From: a virus
Reading direction: 5' to 3' (one strand)
DNA: 38,262 bases
Virus record (IMG/VR): IMGVR_UViG_3300003177_000062
Span: 1 to 38,262 of that record
The position numbers were made by a program, and so were the translations under genes. Within the stretch, counting starts at the first letter, position 1, and every line of letters begins with the position of its first letter. Positions 1-38,262 of this stretch are shown piece by piece. Below the pieces are notes generated by a model. The model had not been told where the DNA came from. It was given only the letters and a program-made list of their open reading frames with translations, and ran no database searches.

Positions 1-64
1 TGTATCATATTCTCTTGCTCTGCTATTATTTCCAAGTATTTTACTATTAGACTATGCTTATCCA
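1..64 (-). CDS. 5' end of origin-spanning coiled-coil protein
   Basis: The ATG at 62-64 follows a good ribosome binding site (AGGAG at 72-76 on the minus strand, 7-8 bases upstream). The frame runs off the left edge and, because base 1 equals base 38209, continues into the frame ending at 37983, giving one protein of about 96 residues. These bases encode the first 21 or so residues, which the right-hand copy of the terminal repeat partly lacks. The whole protein is rich in Lys, Glu, Asn and Arg and looks helical. Function unknown. Confidence 0.7.
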
Positions 65-90
65 TTATTTTTCTCCTGTCTTTTTTTTCT
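1..90. repeat. Left copy of terminal repeat
   Basis: Bases 1-30 match 38209-38238 and bases 67-90 match 38239-38262 exactly. Bases 31-66 (36 bases, 12 codons) are missing from the right copy. The trinucleotide att at 28-30 and 64-66 flanks the extra segment, so the copies differ by a deletion or insertion at 3-bp microhomology. The repeat is what shows the contig is circular or terminally redundant. Confidence 0.85.
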
Positions 91-115
91 TTTCTCTCTT
101 AGTTTTTTCTTTTCT

Positions 116-4722: not shown

Positions 4723-5140
4723 AGTGTTTTTTTAGTTCATCTTCTTTTCTGAATTGTGCCACTTTCCATCTCATTCCACCATAGGGTCTTTCCATCTCCA
4801 ATGCTAGTTCCATTATTGTCTTTTTTTTGTAGTTCTTTTTTATATATTTTAATTCATCTTCTGTGTATTCTTTTCTTTTTCTTTTTGCTTTTTTACCGAC
4901 TACACTAATAATTGCCTTTTGCCTAAATGGCTGTGTATGCTTACCACTTTTTTCATAGTGCCATTTATGTTGATGTTGTTCGCAACAAAATGTTTGATTT
5001 CTTCTCGCTGTTTCAAATTCCTTTTCGCAATATTTACACATAATTTTATTCTTTGGCTTTAATCTTTTTGCATTTAGTCTGTCTTTGTTCCTGTGGTAAA
5101 AATCATTGTTCCATTTTCTTTTTTGTGCCTTAGTTGCCAT
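4709..5140 (-). CDS. Zinc-finger plus Myb-like DNA-binding protein
   Basis: 143 residues, very basic. CKYC (35-38) with CC at 52-53 and H56/H58 forms a likely treble-clef zinc finger of the type often seen in phage HNH-like or DNA-binding proteins. A second part, YTEDELKYIKKNYKKKTIME followed by a helix with GGMRWKV (about 92-127), resembles a Myb/SANT-like HTH. It probably binds DNA. I see no HNH catalytic core, so I do not call it a nuclease. Confidence 0.55.
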   Translation of the reverse strand: MATKAQKRKWNNDFYHRNKDRLNAKRLKPKNKIMCKYCEKEFETARRNQTFCCEQHQHKWHYEKSGKHTQPFRQKAIISVVGKKAKRKRKEYTEDELKYIKKNYKKKTIMELALEMERPYGGMRWKVAQFRKEDELKKHYGDW

Positions 5141-5500
5141 TTAGAATACACAACCATCTTGCTCTACTTGCTCTTTGTAATATTCAATCTTTTGTGTATC
5201 ATCATCTATGTATGTGTTATTATAAAATCCTGCAAAATCTTTAAAATCTTCTATTTCATTTTGCTTACACAATCTACATATATGACACAATCCATCTGTT
5301 TCTATTGGCTCTTCTTTACATTGCCTACAATTTTGAGTAAGTGCTACAAATTCATTCACTTCATCTCGTAATGCTTCTCTTAAATCTTTTTCGTGCATAC
5401 TTGCTATTGTATATAATTTATTTTCTTCATCATTATTCATTAATCTACCTAGCTTCCTTTGTGCTTTCATTCTCAAAAAATCTAATATACTTGTTTTCAT
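5141..5500 (-). CDS. Hypothetical protein with zinc ribbon
   Basis: 119 residues. CRQC (58-61) and CHIC (72-75, plus C78) form a CxxC...CxxC zinc ribbon between an N-terminal helical region and an acidic C-terminus. One base separates it from the 4709-5140 gene. Function unknown. Confidence 0.6.
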   Translation of the reverse strand: MKTSILDFLRMKAQRKLGRLMNNDEENKLYTIASMHEKDLREALRDEVNEFVALTQNCRQCKEEPIETDGLCHICRLCKQNEIEDFKDFAGFYNNTYIDDDTQKIEYYKEQVEQDGCVF

Positions 5501-6063
5501 TTTAATAATCCTTGTGTATTTTTATCATCTTTATATAATCCATTTACTGCTCTTCTTGCTATTGCATCTTCTCTGCTGTCATTAAATCCAAACTCTGATA
5601 ATCCACCACCTGTTTTTTGTTTTGGAATTTTCTTATCTATCCAATCCAATTCAAATGTCTGCCACTCATTATCATACATAATGTCTAGTATTTGTTTGAT
5701 GTCATAACCTTTTATTTCTGCATCTATTAGCTTTTTAACCATTGCCACTAATGGTCTTGTAGTTTTTAATGGCTTCTTAATTGATATTCTATATCTTACA
5801 TATTCTGCTACCATATCAATTCCAATACTTGTACCAATACACATAGCACCTATTCTGCTCATCTCTTTTTGAGTAAATTTTGTACTTAAATATTTTGTTC
5901 CATCTTCCATTTTTGCATCTTTGTTATTTTCTAAAATTAATTTTTCAACCCACTCCAACTCATCTATGCTAATATAAAATCTTGTATGTATTGGTGTTCC
6001 AAATTCCGTATCATCTTTTAACTTCTTATAACTTTTTATTTTTCTTTGTATTGTTTCTAACAT
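5497..6063 (-). CDS. Hypothetical protein, possible replication/regulation factor
   Basis: 188 residues, helical and mostly basic in the first two thirds (FTQKEMSRIGAMCIGTSIGIDMVAEYVRYR is HTH-like at about 64-93). It lies between the HNH-AP2 gene and the zinc-ribbon gene and overlaps the former. I do not recognise the family. Confidence 0.6.
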   Translation of the reverse strand: MLETIQRKIKSYKKLKDDTEFGTPIHTRFYISIDELEWVEKLILENNKDAKMEDGTKYLSTKFTQKEMSRIGAMCIGTSIGIDMVAEYVRYRISIKKPLKTTRPLVAMVKKLIDAEIKGYDIKQILDIMYDNEWQTFELDWIDKKIPKQKTGGGLSEFGFNDSREDAIARRAVNGLYKDDKNTQGLLK

Positions 6064-27536: not shown

Positions 27537-28412
27537 TTATGCAAGTATTTCTCTTTTGCCTTTTTCATTAGGCTTAGATAATATACCATTTGCTTCTAAC
27601 TGCTGTACAATCAAGGCACTTCTATTGAAACCAATCTTTAAACTTCTTTGTAAATATGAAATTGATGTTTTTTGTGTATCTATTACTATTTGCTTTGCAT
27701 CTTCATATAGTGCATCTTGTTCTACTGTTTTTTCTTTTACTTCAAGTTCTGCAAAATATTCGTATGAATAACCTAGACTATCAAAAAGTGTAGGGTCTTG
27801 TGGCTTATATTCTGTACCCATTATAACTGCTGTAATTCTCAAATTGTTTTCTTTAAAACCTTCTATCTTAACCATACCTGCTCTTTGACCTTCTCTATTG
27901 CTATCTTGTTGAATACTGCTCACTTTGTATTTTGTAGCATCTCCAAATTCCTGTATCCCTTTGAATAAATCACTATTAATATGTGTATTATTGTGTGTAG
28001 TGTCAAAATCAATATACATTAAGCTATCTGTTGTGTATGAATTAGTATATCTTTTTGGCAAGTGGTCGTTCATATTTGGAAACTTTAGTTTGTACTTTTC
28101 ATCATATTCATATTCTGTGTGCAACTTGAATTTCATATCATCTACAATTAAATGGTTATCTTCAAACTTGTAACTTACTTCTTTTGTGTTGCTCATAAAA
28201 GTTATCATTGCTTTTAATATCTTTTTATGCAAGTAGTGTGTACCAAAACAATTCTCTACTTCATCTTCATTTAGATTTATAATTACCATCTTTCTTGTAT
28301 CTGTTGAGTAAATACAATTATCATTAAAATCTATGTAGGCATAGTTTATTTCTCTCTTTGGATTTTTACTTGCTATTGCATCTTCTACTAACTTAAATTC
28401 ATTCTTATTCAT
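27537..28412 (-). CDS. Protein with C-terminal FtsK gamma (KOPS-binding-like) domain
   Basis: 291 residues. Residues about 234-291 (ALYEDAKQIVIDTQKTSISY, then QRSLKIGFNRSALIVQQLE, ending KREILA) are an FtsK/SpoIIIE gamma winged helix, which in hosts binds polar KOPS sequences and activates Xer recombinase. No FtsK motor (Walker A/B) is present; the first 230 residues are unassigned beta-rich sequence, with NCIYSTDTRKMVIINL (about 32-47) reminiscent of sliding-clamp-like domains. It lies between portal and a Cys/His protein. Possible roles: recombination at host dif, packaging orientation, or interfering with host FtsK. All inference. Confidence 0.75.
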   Translation of the reverse strand: MNKNEFKLVEDAIASKNPKREINYAYIDFNDNCIYSTDTRKMVIINLNEDEVENCFGTHYLHKKILKAMITFMSNTKEVSYKFEDNHLIVDDMKFKLHTEYEYDEKYKLKFPNMNDHLPKRYTNSYTTDSLMYIDFDTTHNNTHINSDLFKGIQEFGDATKYKVSSIQQDSNREGQRAGMVKIEGFKENNLRITAVIMGTEYKPQDPTLFDSLGYSYEYFAELEVKEKTVEQDALYEDAKQIVIDTQKTSISYLQRSLKIGFNRSALIVQQLEANGILSKPNEKGKREILA

Positions 28413-29170: not shown

Positions 29171-30409
29171 TTATCCTAAAATTGTTGGCTTCTGTATAAC
29201 CATTACACTTACTTTCTGTTTTATCATTGGTGCTAGTGCATATCTAAGTGCATCTATGTAATGGTTATTTGCATCTATTACTATTGGTAAAATATCTCCT
29301 GTTACTCTATCTATCTTGTATGAATATTTTACAAATTCATTAGCTACTTCTTTACATCTGCTATGTATGTGTACTTTTCTAAAACTTCGTATAAATTCTA
29401 TACCATCTTCAATGCTACCACCCCACTTATCTGCACTTACAATATTATATCCTTGCCTTCTAACAAAACTTATACTTTCAGGTCTTGCACAATCTGCTCT
29501 TATTGTATGCTCTTTTGCTTTAGGTATTTTGTCTATTAATCTATGTGTATCATCTAATTCTACTTGCACATCTCCTGCTTCATAATCAATATACAAATCA
29601 TATCCAATTACTGTACATCTTAAAACTGCTGTTGGGTCTTGTGCAAATCCCCAATCTAGTCCAAAGTAAAATGCTAAATCTTTTACTTCATTTTCTTTTG
29701 CTACTTGGTTAATACTAAAATCTTCTATTACAAATTTATCTCTAAATATTTGTGCATCACTAGCTGTTTTACATTGCCCTTCCCAAATGTGTAAATATAA
29801 ATCATAATCCACTTCTCTTAAATATTCCATCTCTTCCTGCAATTCTTGTGGGAAGTGCTTATTGTCATAATGGTTTACTTTTTTAACTATTGAATTTGGT
29901 GGTGGTGTTGTTATAAACTTTTTGTATGTAGGGTCTGTTTCTAAATATGGATTAAATGTAACCCAAATTTCACTACCACTTTTTCTGATAGTAGGTATTA
30001 GAAAATCCCAAGACTGTTGTGATATTTTTTCTGCTTCCTCTACCCAACATATATCTACACCTTCTGTTGATTTAATCTTTGCAGGGTCGTGTAATAATCC
30101 CTTAAATATAAACTCCGTTCCATTTTTACCTAAAATTTGTGTTTTGGTAACATAATAAAAGTTTTCCATATCTAAAGCATTTATTTGGTCACGAAGTAAT
30201 TTGTGTACACTATCTTGTATTGAGTTCTGCATCTCTCTTGTGCATAAAATTCTTACTTTTCTTTGACTTCCCATTATTAGTAATGTCATAGCTACTGCCC
30301 AAGACTTACCACCACCTCTTCCACCATATAAAACTTTATACCTTGCTTTTTTTCTAAGGTCTTTAAATATTGTTGGTATTGATATTGTAATTTCTTTTTT
30401 AACTTTCAA
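29171..30409 (-). CDS. terL: Terminase large subunit (PBSX/Terminase_3 type)
   Basis: 412 residues from a TTG at 30407-30409; no ATG occurs in frame before the Walker A motif, and AAGG lies 9 bases upstream. Walker A GGRGGGKS (29-36) and Walker B DICWVEE (119-125) form the ATPase; FGLDWGFAQDP, IRADCARPES and YIDALRYAL near 240, 295 and 390 hold the nuclease acidic residues. It packages DNA into the prohead. Headful packaging is usual in this type and fits the circular map. Confidence 0.9.
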   Translation of the reverse strand: MKVKKEITISIPTIFKDLRKKARYKVLYGGRGGGKSWAVAMTLLIMGSQRKVRILCTREMQNSIQDSVHKLLRDQINALDMENFYYVTKTQILGKNGTEFIFKGLLHDPAKIKSTEGVDICWVEEAEKISQQSWDFLIPTIRKSGSEIWVTFNPYLETDPTYKKFITTPPPNSIVKKVNHYDNKHFPQELQEEMEYLREVDYDLYLHIWEGQCKTASDAQIFRDKFVIEDFSINQVAKENEVKDLAFYFGLDWGFAQDPTAVLRCTVIGYDLYIDYEAGDVQVELDDTHRLIDKIPKAKEHTIRADCARPESISFVRRQGYNIVSADKWGGSIEDGIEFIRSFRKVHIHSRCKEVANEFVKYSYKIDRVTGDILPIVIDANNHYIDALRYALAPMIKQKVSVMVIQKPTILG

Positions 30410-30538: not shown

Positions 30539-30904
30539 CTAATCTTCATATTTAACTGTGTAACTTGCACTTTCATCTATCTTCATCTCCTGCTTTGTTG
30601 TGTATCCTCTCTCTTTTCCTAATGTATCTAGTGTATATGTTATTGCCCATTTCTCTCCATTGTTCATTGCCTGTAAAAGCTTTGTTTCTGCAAGGTCTAA
30701 CACTTCTTCGTGCATATCTTCTATTGACTGTTTTAGTGTATCAAATTTGTTAATCCAATTATCTAATGTCTGTCTGCTTATGTTAGCTGTTCTACAAGCA
30801 AGTGCTTTATGTTTTCCACCTGTCTTTTGTAACACTTCTAGTATAATTTTTATCTTCTTCTTCTGTGCAGGTGTAGGGTACTGTTTCTTCTCTTTTACAC
30901 TCAT
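30539..30904 (-). CDS. terS: Terminase small subunit
   Basis: 121 residues. HTH at about 33-52 (KALACRTANISRQTLDNWIN), basic N-terminus and a coiled-coil middle (about 53-85) as in terS proteins that recognise pac. Overlaps the ParB-methyltransferase gene by four bases and is followed by the TACACAT cluster. Confidence 0.75.
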   Translation of the reverse strand: MSVKEKKQYPTPAQKKKIKIILEVLQKTGGKHKALACRTANISRQTLDNWINKFDTLKQSIEDMHEEVLDLAETKLLQAMNNGEKWAITYTLDTLGKERGYTTKQEMKIDESASYTVKYED

Positions 30905-32352
30905 TCTATTAGTCCTTTTGCCTTATATCTATCATATCTCGTACTGAAAACCATTATTGCTCTATCTCTTATATCACTAAATGTTCTATTATTGTATCTA
31001 ATTCCAAATTCAAACTCTACTGCTTCTAATAACTCTTCTTTGTTTATTGTGTACTTTGGATTGTCTATTCTATAAAATGTGTACTGTGCTTTTGTTTTGA
31101 ATTTTCCACCTTTTCCAAATAGTTTTTCTATATCACTCTCTGTATGGAAGTTCTGTATCTTAGTCTTGTTCCCTGTACTTATAAATGATTTCTTTCCTAA
31201 CTCTTCTATTTTTGTTGCTGTACTATTGTTTGTGTTACACTTTAAAGATGTTATATTTCTACTGCTTACAATTAGTGTAGTTGCTCCTGCTGATAGAAAT
31301 TTTAATAATGTAACAACTTTTTTCAAGTCTGCTTCAAAAGGTACACTATTCAATACTGCATTTGCTACAACTAAATTAAATGGCTCATCTTTTGTAAGTT
31401 CTTTTAGTGTGTTCTCTAAACTATGGTATGTTTCTTTTAATGAAAATGCTAAACCTTCTCCTGCTGTTGCAAATGGCTCAAACAATGTTATATCGTGTCC
31501 TTTGTGTCTAGCAAATACAGTCTGCTTCCCATTCCCTGCTCCAAAGTCTAATATTCTTTTGTAATGTGTTTTCATATACTTACTTCTAAATGCTTCACTA
31601 CCATCTGCTAATACATCTCCTACTAGCACATTTGAATATACACCACTTAAACTATTAGCTACTTGATGTCGCCTTTGTTCTAGTCTTATATTGTCCTCTT
31701 TACCTTTTAGTGAATAATTTGCTGTTATGTATCTAAATACATCATTTGTTATTCCCTTAACCACTAAGCAAGGTATCTCATCAAATATTGTTCTGTAATA
31801 TTGGTATCTTGCATTTCCATTTATAATATTTAAGTTCTCATCTAAAATTATTGGTATGATTACTTTTGCTTTCATATACAGTAGTGCTGAATTGCCTTGT
31901 GCTTTCTTATCTTTGAGTTCTGTTTGGATTATTTTGTCTTTGTGTAGTAGTTGTGTGCTTTTTAAGAAGTGAAATTTATCTTTTACATCTTCAAGGCTTT
32001 CAAGATATTCTAATAACTCCTGTTGCTTTTGTGCTATATTTCCACTTGCTTCTTCATCACTAACTATTTCTTGCATCTCTTTATTAAATGCAAAGTTTAC
32101 TGCATTTGTTGCACTCTTTGGTAAGTCTGCTAAGACTATACAGTATATATGTGTTTCTCCCATTGCTTTTAATGTCTTTGTTCTTTGATGTCCACTTAGT
32201 AATTTACCTGTTCTAGTGATAAATAGTGGACTTAACAACCCAAATTTTGTAAGCGATAATCTTAATAGTTTAAATTTCTCATCACTTAGTATTCGTGGAT
32301 TGTTTACATCTCCTAGTACATTTCGTATCTCAACTTTTTTTAATGTAAACAT
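30901..32352 (-). CDS. ParB-ParB-methyltransferase fusion
   Basis: 483 residues from the ATG at 32350-32352, chosen for GGAG seven bases upstream; a longer frame to 32385 overlaps the next gene more. First ParB/sulfiredoxin-like box GKLLSGHQRTKTLKAMG (49-65), a second weaker one near 165-200 (IILDENLNIINGNARYQYY), then a class I SAM methyltransferase: motif I ILDFGAGNGKQ (267-277), acidic E292, and VANAVLNSVP (329-338) as motif IV. The absence of DPPY/NPPY argues against a standard N6-adenine or N4-cytosine enzyme. The 'VLN' motif recalls methyltransferases linked with DNA modification. It may act on phage DNA; substrate unknown. Confidence 0.7.
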   Translation of the reverse strand: MFTLKKVEIRNVLGDVNNPRILSDEKFKLLRLSLTKFGLLSPLFITRTGKLLSGHQRTKTLKAMGETHIYCIVLADLPKSATNAVNFAFNKEMQEIVSDEEASGNIAQKQQELLEYLESLEDVKDKFHFLKSTQLLHKDKIIQTELKDKKAQGNSALLYMKAKVIIPIILDENLNIINGNARYQYYRTIFDEIPCLVVKGITNDVFRYITANYSLKGKEDNIRLEQRRHQVANSLSGVYSNVLVGDVLADGSEAFRSKYMKTHYKRILDFGAGNGKQTVFARHKGHDITLFEPFATAGEGLAFSLKETYHSLENTLKELTKDEPFNLVVANAVLNSVPFEADLKKVVTLLKFLSAGATTLIVSSRNITSLKCNTNNSTATKIEELGKKSFISTGNKTKIQNFHTESDIEKLFGKGGKFKTKAQYTFYRIDNPKYTINKEELLEAVEFEFGIRYNNRTFSDIRDRAIMVFSTRYDRYKAKGLIE

Positions 32353-32767
32353 ACAATACTCCATTATCTTCTGCTGAATATACATCTACTTTTAAAATGT
32401 ATTTTAGTAATGCTAAAAATTTATGAATACTCAATGGTGCTTTATATTTATTGTCAAAAAAGCTATAATTTAATGTAGCTACATTTTTACTAAATGCTAT
32501 TTGTTCTACTTTGTAAGTTTCAATTACTTGCTTCAAGCTTTTTATCCCACTTACATTCAATCCATTTACTGCAATAAAATCAATAGCTTCTCCATAGTTC
32601 TTCAAAAAACCAAACATTCCTGTAAAGCTTTTAAAGTATGGATTTTTACTTGATGAAGATAATATTTTTTCTGAATATATAACATCTTTTGTATCATCTA
32701 ATACCAATAACTGTGTACCCAAGTTAGCTACTAATGCCCTCTTAAATTCTACATTACTTATTGTCAT
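32330..32767 (-). CDS. Hypothetical protein of the modification-like island
   Basis: 145 residues, hydrophobic core, no motif I recognise. It overlaps the ParB gene's stop and the ParB-methyltransferase start, so it is translated with both. Confidence 0.6.
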   Translation of the reverse strand: MTISNVEFKRALVANLGTQLLVLDDTKDVIYSEKILSSSSKNPYFKSFTGMFGFLKNYGEAIDFIAVNGLNVSGIKSLKQVIETYKVEQIAFSKNVATLNYSFFDNKYKAPLSIHKFLALLKYILKVDVYSAEDNGVLYVYIKKS

Positions 32768-33320
32768 TATTAATACCTTCTACATAGTCAATATTCTTAC
32801 TATCTAATAGTTGTTTAACTTCATCTATTTTATCTGTTGTAATAATAAGCACTTTCTCCTGCTCTTTAAAATCACTCATCTTAACTTTGCTCATATCAAA
32901 ACTAAGTACATCTTCACTAAAACCTTCAACTAATCCATCTATGTTTAATATACTAATATTAAAGTCTTTATCTGCACCTAAAATACCTTCAACTGTTTGC
33001 ACTAATAATTCATTATCATAGTGTCCTGTTCTTGCTGTTTGATTATCATAAATTCTAAACTTATCTTTTTGTACTTGCTTTAATCCTGTAAGTTTTAGCA
33101 CTTCAATTTCAGTTTCTCCATCTTCTTTCATAACTTCAAATCTTCCGTGTCCTGCAAGTATCATATTCCCATCATCTACAATAATTGGTGTTACATAACC
33201 AATATCATTTAAACTTTGTCTAATAAGTGCTAAGTTTTCTGCTGTATGTACTTTTTCATTTTTAGGGTTTGCTTTTATATCGTTTACTTTTAGTGTAACT
33301 ACTTTTTTATTCGTTGCCAT
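32754..33320 (-). CDS. ParB-like nuclease-domain protein
   Basis: 188 residues. ParB box GNMILAGHGRFEVM (51-64) with KANPKNEKVHTAENLALIRQ before it is clear. In phages such domains often sit beside methyltransferases and are thought to direct DNA binding or CTP/ATP-dependent steps. The C-terminal half (about 80-188) is not assigned. Confidence 0.7.
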   Translation of the reverse strand: MATNKKVVTLKVNDIKANPKNEKVHTAENLALIRQSLNDIGYVTPIIVDDGNMILAGHGRFEVMKEDGETEIEVLKLTGLKQVQKDKFRIYDNQTARTGHYDNELLVQTVEGILGADKDFNISILNIDGLVEGFSEDVLSFDMSKVKMSDFKEQEKVLIITTDKIDEVKQLLDSKNIDYVEGINNDNK

Positions 33321-33334
33321 TTTATTTTCCTTTT

Positions 33335-34021
33335 TTATTTAATTGCTAAGATACCTGTAAATGTGTATCTCTTCCAAAATATTTCTATTTTTCTAAAACC
33401 TGCATCTCTTAACATTTGTATATTTTCATCAAGTGTATATAGCTTCATTTGATGTCTTAAATCATATTCTTTATCAAGGATTTCTGTATCTGAAAAATGC
33501 TCTCTTTTATGGTCATAATACATAAATGATAATATATCTTGTAGCTTTGAACTTTCTGCTAACATCTTTTCGCAAAATATAAAACCTGCTCCATAGTTCA
33601 TTGAATTATAAACTTTTTGTACTGCTTTAAATCTTTTATGCTGTGGTATAAATTGCATTGTAAATACTGATGTTATCAAACTAGCATTTGTCATATTCTC
33701 AACATCAAATAAATCCATCTTTTTAAATAGTGCATTATTATTATTCTCTAATGCTTTTGTAAAATTTCCTTCTTTTTCTATACCTATCACATTTGCTGTT
33801 GTATGTTTTTTAGCTAAGTCATACACAAGCTTTCCACTACTGCACCCTACATCATAAACATTTGTGTTTGCTTCTACAAAATATTCAGATAGATTTTGAA
33901 TATCCTGCACCAACTCTCCATAACCTTTGATACTGTTTTCAATATGTGCATCAAAGTTTTTTATACTACTAAAGTCAAAGTTTTTTTCATTTCCCATTTT
34001 ATTCTCCTGTTTGTGTTCCAA
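33335..34021 (-). CDS. CmoA-like class I methyltransferase / carboxy-SAM synthase homologue
   Basis: 228 residues. Aligns by eye with E. coli CmoA over nearly its length: VYDVGCSSGKL (55-65) as motif I, SVFTMQFIPQHKRF (118-131), FIFCEKM (147-153), MYYDHKREHFSDTEI (167-181), and FTGILAIK at the end. CmoA makes carboxy-SAM from SAM and prephenate for tRNA wobble modification by CmoB. The CmoA Arg199 reported to hold the carboxylate appears to be Glu185 in a gap-free alignment, with Arg189 nearby, so the cofactor made here is uncertain. No CmoB in the window. Confidence 0.7.
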   Translation of the reverse strand: MEHKQENKMGNEKNFDFSSIKNFDAHIENSIKGYGELVQDIQNLSEYFVEANTNVYDVGCSSGKLVYDLAKKHTTANVIGIEKEGNFTKALENNNNALFKKMDLFDVENMTNASLITSVFTMQFIPQHKRFKAVQKVYNSMNYGAGFIFCEKMLAESSKLQDILSFMYYDHKREHFSDTEILDKEYDLRHQMKLYTLDENIQMLRDAGFRKIEIFWKRYTFTGILAIK

Positions 34022-34402
34022 GCATTTCCAAAAATGATACTCTTGTGTATATGCTTCTTATGCCTAATTTTTTAAATTCGCTTTGTGTAGTAAAATTACT
34101 TTCAATAGCGATAAAATCATTTACTTCATAATCCCCACTCATTAAAAGTCTTTCTACATATTCTCTTTTAAAATCGTGTACTTTTTTAAATCTGTTTTTA
34201 TAAGACTTGAATACTGCTACATCTATTTTTAGTCCTAAGTCCTTTTCAATCTTTGCAAGTGTTTCTTCTTGGTAATTGTCTGTTCTTGCTGTTACCAAAT
34301 GGATTTCAAAACCACTCTGAATTGCACTTGCTAACTCTTTACTATAAATATCCCCTTGTACATTATATGTAAATGTTCTAAAGTTATTACTTTCTTTCTC
34401 AT
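33999..34402 (-). CDS. Degenerate HAD-like protein, probable 1-base frameshift
   Basis: The upstream ATG at 34400-34402 (GGAG seven bases before) reads MRKKVIT and loses frame at ACTTTAG near 34378-34383; one more T joins RTFTYNVQGDIYSKELASAI and the rest. Segment LVTART (near 43-48) and FIAIESN resemble HAD motifs II and IV, but motif I would be NVQG instead of DxDG and motif IV lacks its Asp pair. So a HAD fold without phosphatase residues is likely. Overlaps the CmoA-like gene. Confidence 0.5.
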
Positions 34403-37999: not shown

Positions 38000-38262
38000 T
38001 TGCACTCTCTTTATACATTTTTATTGCATATCTCTTTTTCCCACTATGTTTTTCATTTTGCTTTATAGAATTATATGTATCTTGCAAACAACTTCTTAGT
38101 TCATCTGCTCTTGCTTTCCATTCAATAGCATTTGTTTTGTACATATCTTTTTTTCTAGTTAGTTCTGTGTTTCTATTTTTCAATGTTTTATTTGAAGCAT
38201 CTAATGCCTGTATCATATTCTCTTGCTCTGCTATTATTATTTTTCTCCTGTCTTTTTTTTCT
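37983..38262 (-). CDS. Origin-spanning coiled-coil protein (main part)
   Basis: Continues from 1-64 on the circular map. In this copy an internal ATG at 38214-38216 starts a frame of 77 residues, but the real start is the ATG at 62-64 of the left repeat. The right copy lacks that ATG because of the 36-base gap. Sequence is helical and rich in Lys, Asn, Arg (ALDASNKTLKNRNTELTRKK). Confidence 0.65.
   Translation of the reverse strand, partial: EKKDRRKIIIAEQENMIQALDASNKTLKNRNTELTRKKDMYKTNAIEWKARADELRSCLQDTYNSIKQNEKHSGKKRYAIKMYKESANARVQ
38209..38262. repeat. Right copy of terminal repeat, 36 bases shorter
   Basis: Equals bases 1-30 joined to 67-90. The missing 36 bases contain the start codon of the origin-spanning gene. 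See the left copy. Confidence 0.85.

Follow-up and report, generated by a model that had tools for sequence, protein, structure and literature searches.

A phage CmoA homologue is linked to a ParB-methyltransferase fusion that may carboxymethylate DNA

The viral record IMGVR_UViG_3300003177_000062, analysed here over its whole length of 38,262 nucleotides and called the window in the following, encodes a CmoA homologue in a compact module with a second enzyme, in which two ParB-like domains are fused to a class I methyltransferase. The two genes proved to be almost inseparable in phages and prophages of many bacterial phyla. The reading that we favour, and hold to be reasonably probable, is that carboxy-SAM made by CmoA is used by the ParB-guided fusion protein, which would then carboxymethylate phage DNA; the use of carboxy-SAM by the fusion, DNA as its target and the nature of the modified base are all points that we infer. 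A phage CmoA serving DNA carboxymethylation has already been published. Yang et al. (Nat Commun 2025) demonstrated that CmoA of Synechococcus phage S-B43 feeds CmoX, a cytosine-C5 carboxymethyltransferase, that the product is 5-carboxymethylcytosine and that CmoY is a ligase adding glycine (PMC12783734). The new part of the present work is the different partner protein. The genes concerned are listed in Table 1.

Table 1. Genes of the CmoA module and the adjoining terminase genes in the window
Feature	Position	Strand	Family matches and remarks
Terminase large subunit, adjoins module	29171..30409	-	phrog_3717, E 3.9e-70
Terminase small subunit, adjoins module	30539..30904	-	phrog_4102 and others
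ParB-like / second ParB-like / class I methyltransferase fusion	30901..32385	-	phrog_5475; proposed carboxy-SAM-dependent transferase
Small protein, 145 aa	32330..32767	-	no family match; found only in nearest modules
Stand-alone ParB-like protein	32754..33320	-	phrog_620/phrog_498, weak ParB_N
CmoA homologue, predicted carboxy-SAM synthase	33335..33997	-	TIGR00740, phrog_4752, AF2 model
HAD-like protein remnant	34002..34298 or 34406	-	5' end with DLNxT motif missing

The CmoA-like open reading frame extends over 33335..34021 on the minus strand, with a TTG at 34021 as its upstream start. An ATG at 33997 is preceded by the ribosome-binding site AGGAGAA, and the homologue in locus L007 (87% identical) uses the same start; the shorter frame given in Table 1 is therefore the likely gene and the first 24 bases of the longer one are probably non-coding. 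The near full-length resemblance to bacterial CmoA noticed in the original prediction was borne out when the protein was compared with profiles and structures. The TIGR00740 (CmoA) profile matched residues 14-228, nearly the full length, with 119.8 bits (E 1.4e-34). This score lies below the curated equivalog cut-off of 193.3, which is tuned to bacterial CmoA, and it weakens the equivalog label of the window protein, not its likely function. The phrog_4752 profile matched with 177 bits (E 6e-52), and solved CmoA chains were matched by sequence with E values from 5.6e-23 to 1e-21. An AF2 model calculated with an input alignment of 39 module CmoAs had a pLDDT of 91 and reached a TM of 0.88 with 1im8, 4iwn and 4gek as the best structures, the top matches being the CmoA proteins of H. 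influenzae and E. coli. Scans of IMG/VR with single proteins returned only one near relative and alignments were required to find more; a deep alignment of CmoAs offered no segment of sufficient conservation for use as a scan query.

Residue Arg199 of E. coli CmoA is salt-bridged to the carboxylate of carboxy-SAM (PMC3663124). Alignment confirmed the earlier observation that the window protein carries a glutamate in this column, and placed an arginine at +4 (KE..LR). At the level of sequence, the doubt about carboxy-SAM synthesis that had been attached to this exchange falls away for this protein, because the CmoA of phage S-B43 has the identical arrangement and is a proven carboxy-SAM synthase with a kcat of 2.33/s as compared to 0.23/s for the E. 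coli enzyme (PMC12783734). Loss of Arg199 was hence dropped as an argument against CmoA function, and comparison at the sequence level indicates that the window protein is probably an enzyme producing carboxy-SAM. The CmoAs linked to fusion proteins are not uniform at this site: 41 of 81 have the bacterial R..LE, 13 have the arginine at +4 and 27 have an arginine at neither position. About one third of them thus lack an arginine at either carboxylate-binding position and may make something else. Proteins with neither arginine (L036, L046, L059, L030, L015 and similar ones) may bind the carboxylate in another way or produce another SAM analogue. The CmoA of Pseudomonas phage SM1 also lacks the two arginines.

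We then asked how firmly CmoA and the fusion are associated. Fusion genes were fetched from IMG/VR and GTDB genomes by the fusion sequence only, CmoA not being used, and a locus was counted if 1.5 kb or more flanked the fusion on each side. A same-strand CmoA reading frame was present beside 104 of the 105 fusions so selected, with a median gap of 360-415 bp, and CmoA was kept in every one of the 35 fusion lineages distinct at 70% identity. A fusion truly without CmoA occurs in L159; the apparent exception L147 is cut off upstream. The loci are from phages and prophages whose hosts represent about ten bacterial phyla, those derived from genomes falling into Pseudomonadota, Verrucomicrobiota, Bacillota, Thermodesulfobacteriota, Bacteroidota, Chloroflexota, Cyanobacteriota and others. 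The control set consisted of 79 contigs whose terminases are related to that of the window; a full-length fusion was found in none of them and no CmoA match exceeded 26 bits, which indicates that CmoA and the fusion are gained and lost as one unit. Among isolated phages, full-length phrog_5475 matches were found in Gordonia phage Evaa, Aeromonas phage HJ05, Pseudomonas phage SM1 and close relatives of SM1. CmoA adjoins the fusion in all three phages checked (Evaa, HJ05 and SM1), where it is annotated as 'methyltransferase', 'hypothetical' or 'tRNA methyltransferase'. The original prediction had suspected the ParB-methyltransferase fusion two genes away as the partner of CmoA. The arrangement is real, with the stand-alone ParB-like gene and the small gene of no matched family in between, and the near-obligate linkage strengthens the suspicion.

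Other known partners of CmoA were sought as well. The absence of CmoB from the phage was confirmed, the only match in the window being CmoA itself at 12.8 bits. A CmoX elsewhere in the record was looked for and not found: neither the window nor the L007 record gave a match to PF00145 (C5-methyltransferase) at E 1; the whole records of SM1, HJ05 and Evaa likewise contain no PF00145 protein, and no CmoX above 150 bits occurred in any fusion locus surveyed. The window had no match to PF00733, the Asn-synthetase-type ligase family of CmoY, and CmoY homologues, present in 49 CmoX loci, were absent from the flanks of all fusion loci. A CmoY-like ligase was accordingly rejected as a component of the fusion modules. 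A distant Asn-synthase-like gene occurs in HJ05 alone (L349:1288-2505), 7 kb from CmoA; its 405-aa product might be a ligase that acts on the carboxymethyl group. The ends of the window (1..92 and about 38205..38262) have in common a repeat of 30 bases and a further 24 bases, with a 37-nt gap, which suggests that the genome is nearly complete and circularly permuted or terminally redundant; IMG/VR classes the record as linear, and a gene may be missing from it. At 30% G+C, the window is strongly depleted in CpG (observed/expected 0.17) and enriched in GpC (1.38). A 291-aa protein encoded at 27537..28412 on the minus strand ends in an FtsK gamma domain and has no matched FtsK motor.

The window fusion is a member of phrog_5475 by a full-length profile match (residues 15-465, E 1.5e-46). 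Its AF2 model (pLDDT 85) contains a ParB fold at residues 13-108 and a methyltransferase fold at about 240-445. A second ParB-like segment at about 145-208 was read from repeated secondary structure and an N-G-x-x-R motif. The methyltransferase domain has the motifs DFGxG and EP, followed by N-S-V-P-F after strand 4. The fusion lacks a C5-methyltransferase domain, and strand 4 is not followed by a motif of the DPPY type. Reading N-S-V-P-F as the motif of an N6/N4 amino-methyltransferase was found to be unsupported: judged by eye, it lies four residues past strand 4 in the model, where small-molecule enzymes carry 'VLEHVPD'. Structural matches of the domain were small-molecule, tRNA and protein methyltransferases with Z up to 11.8 (METTL6, GNMT), and no DNA methyltransferase family was among them; C5-type and DPPY-type enzymes are missing from the fold matches listed, which is not proof of their absence. 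PADLOC matched only ParB_N segments, to a generic type II methyltransferase model.

Invariant in the fusion family are R234, N346-S-x-P-F350, K409 and Q411. Arg234 is kept in 158 of 158 fusions and Lys409 in 155 of 155, the latter residue sitting inside the sequence pattern that fetched part of the set. Judged from this conservation, both are candidate basic residues for the carboxylate of carboxy-SAM. Arg234 is located ahead of the methyltransferase domain, at a position which we take to match broadly that of Lys91 in CmoB. In CmoB, this lysine decides between carboxy-SAM and SAM (PMC4482062); the carboxylate of carboxy-SAM is contacted by it and, in SpCmoX, by Arg350.

Other genes recur in the fusion modules. 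Of the 35 distinct fusion loci, 33 have a stand-alone ParB-like gene and 24 a member of a HAD-like family (D-L-N-x-T, TAR, K, ESN), which matched the NIF, acid phosphatase and PNKP phosphatase families weakly; neither gene was found in any of 70 CmoX loci. ParB-domain proteins have been reported near many CmoX genes (PMC12783734). The HAD-like gene is intact in L007 (6571-7020). In the window it runs straight out of the upstream gene, pointing to a deletion or an assembly fault. Homologues of the 145-aa protein occur in L032, L033, L034 and L007 (8221-8697).

CmoX itself is a frequent companion of related enzymes: scanning IMG/VR with CmoAs near that of the window, we found CmoX in 70 of 80 loci. 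In a quick tree of 72 CmoAs, the window protein fell into a group of 21 (SH-aLRT 99) together with CmoX-linked CmoAs, and the CmoX-linked CmoA of phage PaBG was placed among the fusion-linked ones. To account for the tree, three or more switches between a CmoX-type and a fusion-type partner are needed. Movement of CmoA between two transferase partners is most simply understood if both use one cofactor, carboxy-SAM, and the sequence data thus suggest that CmoX-type and fusion-type modules share a product.

Several loci with other neighbours were encountered. In L004 and L010 (Staphylococcus phages F1 and SPbeta-like), the C5-methyltransferases beside CmoA seem to have glycine in the column of SpCmoX Arg350 and GSPC in place of SPPC, which would put them outside the published CmoX definition. 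Alcaligenes phage Afa-NA1 (L006) has a CmoA at 4980-5732 and neither CmoX nor a fusion in its whole record; a D12-class adenine methyltransferase 2.5 kb from CmoA is a possible third type of partner. A preliminary search by Yang et al. gave no candidates for adenine-N6 or cytosine-N4 carboxymethyltransferases with phage CmoA (PMC12783734). The CmoA homologue at L005:6959-7753 (MT835562) is part of an operon that also encodes ABC exporters, a TonB-type receptor and oxidoreductases, resembling a natural-product cluster more than a phage.

In the mechanism that we propose, CmoA would convert SAM and prephenate to carboxy-SAM, the two ParB-like domains would hold the fusion protein on DNA, probably helped by the separate ParB-like protein, and the fusion would use carboxy-SAM to carboxymethylate phage DNA. 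The carboxymethylated base might then protect the DNA before packaging, the module being situated directly beside the terminase genes. The ParB folds in the model of the fusion favour DNA as the target. The same enzyme could instead carboxymethylate tRNA or a protein such as the terminase, with the ParB domains only localising it. The methyltransferase fold, nearer to tRNA, protein and small-molecule enzymes than to DNA methyltransferases, and the position of the module next to terminase genes in several phages would fit such a target, but we regard it as unlikely: DNA binding is suggested by the two ParB-like domains together with the separate ParB protein, fusions of ParB_N to DNA methyltransferases are common (PMC12783734; phrog_498 matches), and the verified phage CmoA system modifies DNA. 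Supplementation of host tRNA cmo5U synthesis via host CmoB would be in keeping with CmoA's original role. CmoB and bacterial CmoA over the cut-offs were indeed found in Vibrio and Photobacterium, yet in these only; the other eight of ten module-carrying host genomes had neither, their CmoA matches being below the cut-off and mostly at the module only and CmoB being absent or weak. As most of the checked hosts lack both proteins, a tRNA cmo5U role is unlikely; the window has no tRNA genes, and the linkage of CmoA to the fusion would be left unexplained. We therefore disfavour it and consider the supplementation of host tRNA synthesis extremely improbable. The original prediction had envisaged carboxy-SAM for the carboxymethylation of DNA or tRNA, of which synthesis for a nucleic acid without CmoB is well supported while the tRNA part is not.

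The cofactor itself could also differ. Module CmoAs might produce a SAM analogue other than carboxy-SAM, or do no more than bind SAM, with the fusion using that analogue or plain SAM. The group lacking both Arg199 and the arginine at +4 and the score of the window protein below the equivalog cut-off speak for this, but the active-site arrangement of the window protein is that of the verified S-B43 enzyme, the bacterial one is kept in half of the partners (41 of 81), CmoAs move between CmoX and fusion modules, and all 39 module CmoAs scanned match TIGR00740, so that we rate it as improbable. Still less probable, and in our judgement very unlikely, is that the consumption of SAM or prephenate is itself the function, in anti-defence or host takeover, and that the fusion, a conventional DNA methyltransferase using SAM, only travels along. 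SAM depletion by phage CmoA has been raised as a possibility (PMC12783734), but two genes that only travel together would be expected to occur separately in many cases, whereas the 35 distinct lineages keep both without exception.

Carboxymethylation of phage DNA by the CmoA-fed fusion thus remains the preferred reading. If the fusion is a carboxymethyltransferase, phages have recruited carboxy-SAM at least two times for nucleic-acid modification. Opinion is evenly balanced, in our assessment, on the wider proposal that phrog_5475 represents a further class of DNA carboxymethyltransferase that depends on carboxy-SAM, is unrelated to the first and would be ParB-guided, neither C5-type nor DPPY-type, widespread, and gained and lost with its own CmoA; its product may be a carboxymethylated base not yet known. 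Carboxymethyltransferase activity of the fusion would provide a function for a large orphan family and probably a new modified base, and cultured carriers such as Pseudomonas phage SM1, Aeromonas phage HJ05 and Gordonia phage Evaa allow direct testing by mass spectrometry.

The family to which the window fusion belongs is listed in PHROGs as 'unknown function', and another of its members is gp2 of Gordonia phage Evaa, described as 'ParB-N-terminal-like domain methyltransferase'. In the literature searched, no paper describing a link between phrog_5475 and CmoA was found. Bacterial CmoA and the window protein are of the same family, with the same fold and motif I, at an identity of about 27-28% (E. 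coli, H. influenzae); the bacterial CmoA/CmoB system (tRNA cmo5U34) differs by the presence of CmoB and by Arg199, which in the window protein is replaced by Glu with Arg at +4. The engineered carboxymethyltransferase M.MpeI N374K is cited as using carboxy-SAM on DNA (PMC12783734) but is a C5-methyltransferase, which the window fusion is not. Also close is the CmoA-CmoX-CmoY system of S-B43. The window record has neither the C5-methyltransferase nor the Asn-synthetase-type ligase of that system, the partner of its CmoA belongs to another family, that of the ParB-ParB-class I methyltransferase fusions, and most fusion modules contain a HAD-like gene as a further difference from S-B43. Both systems, however, have a phage CmoA without CmoB, the KE..LR arrangement, and linkage of CmoA to a transferase of the SAM fold.
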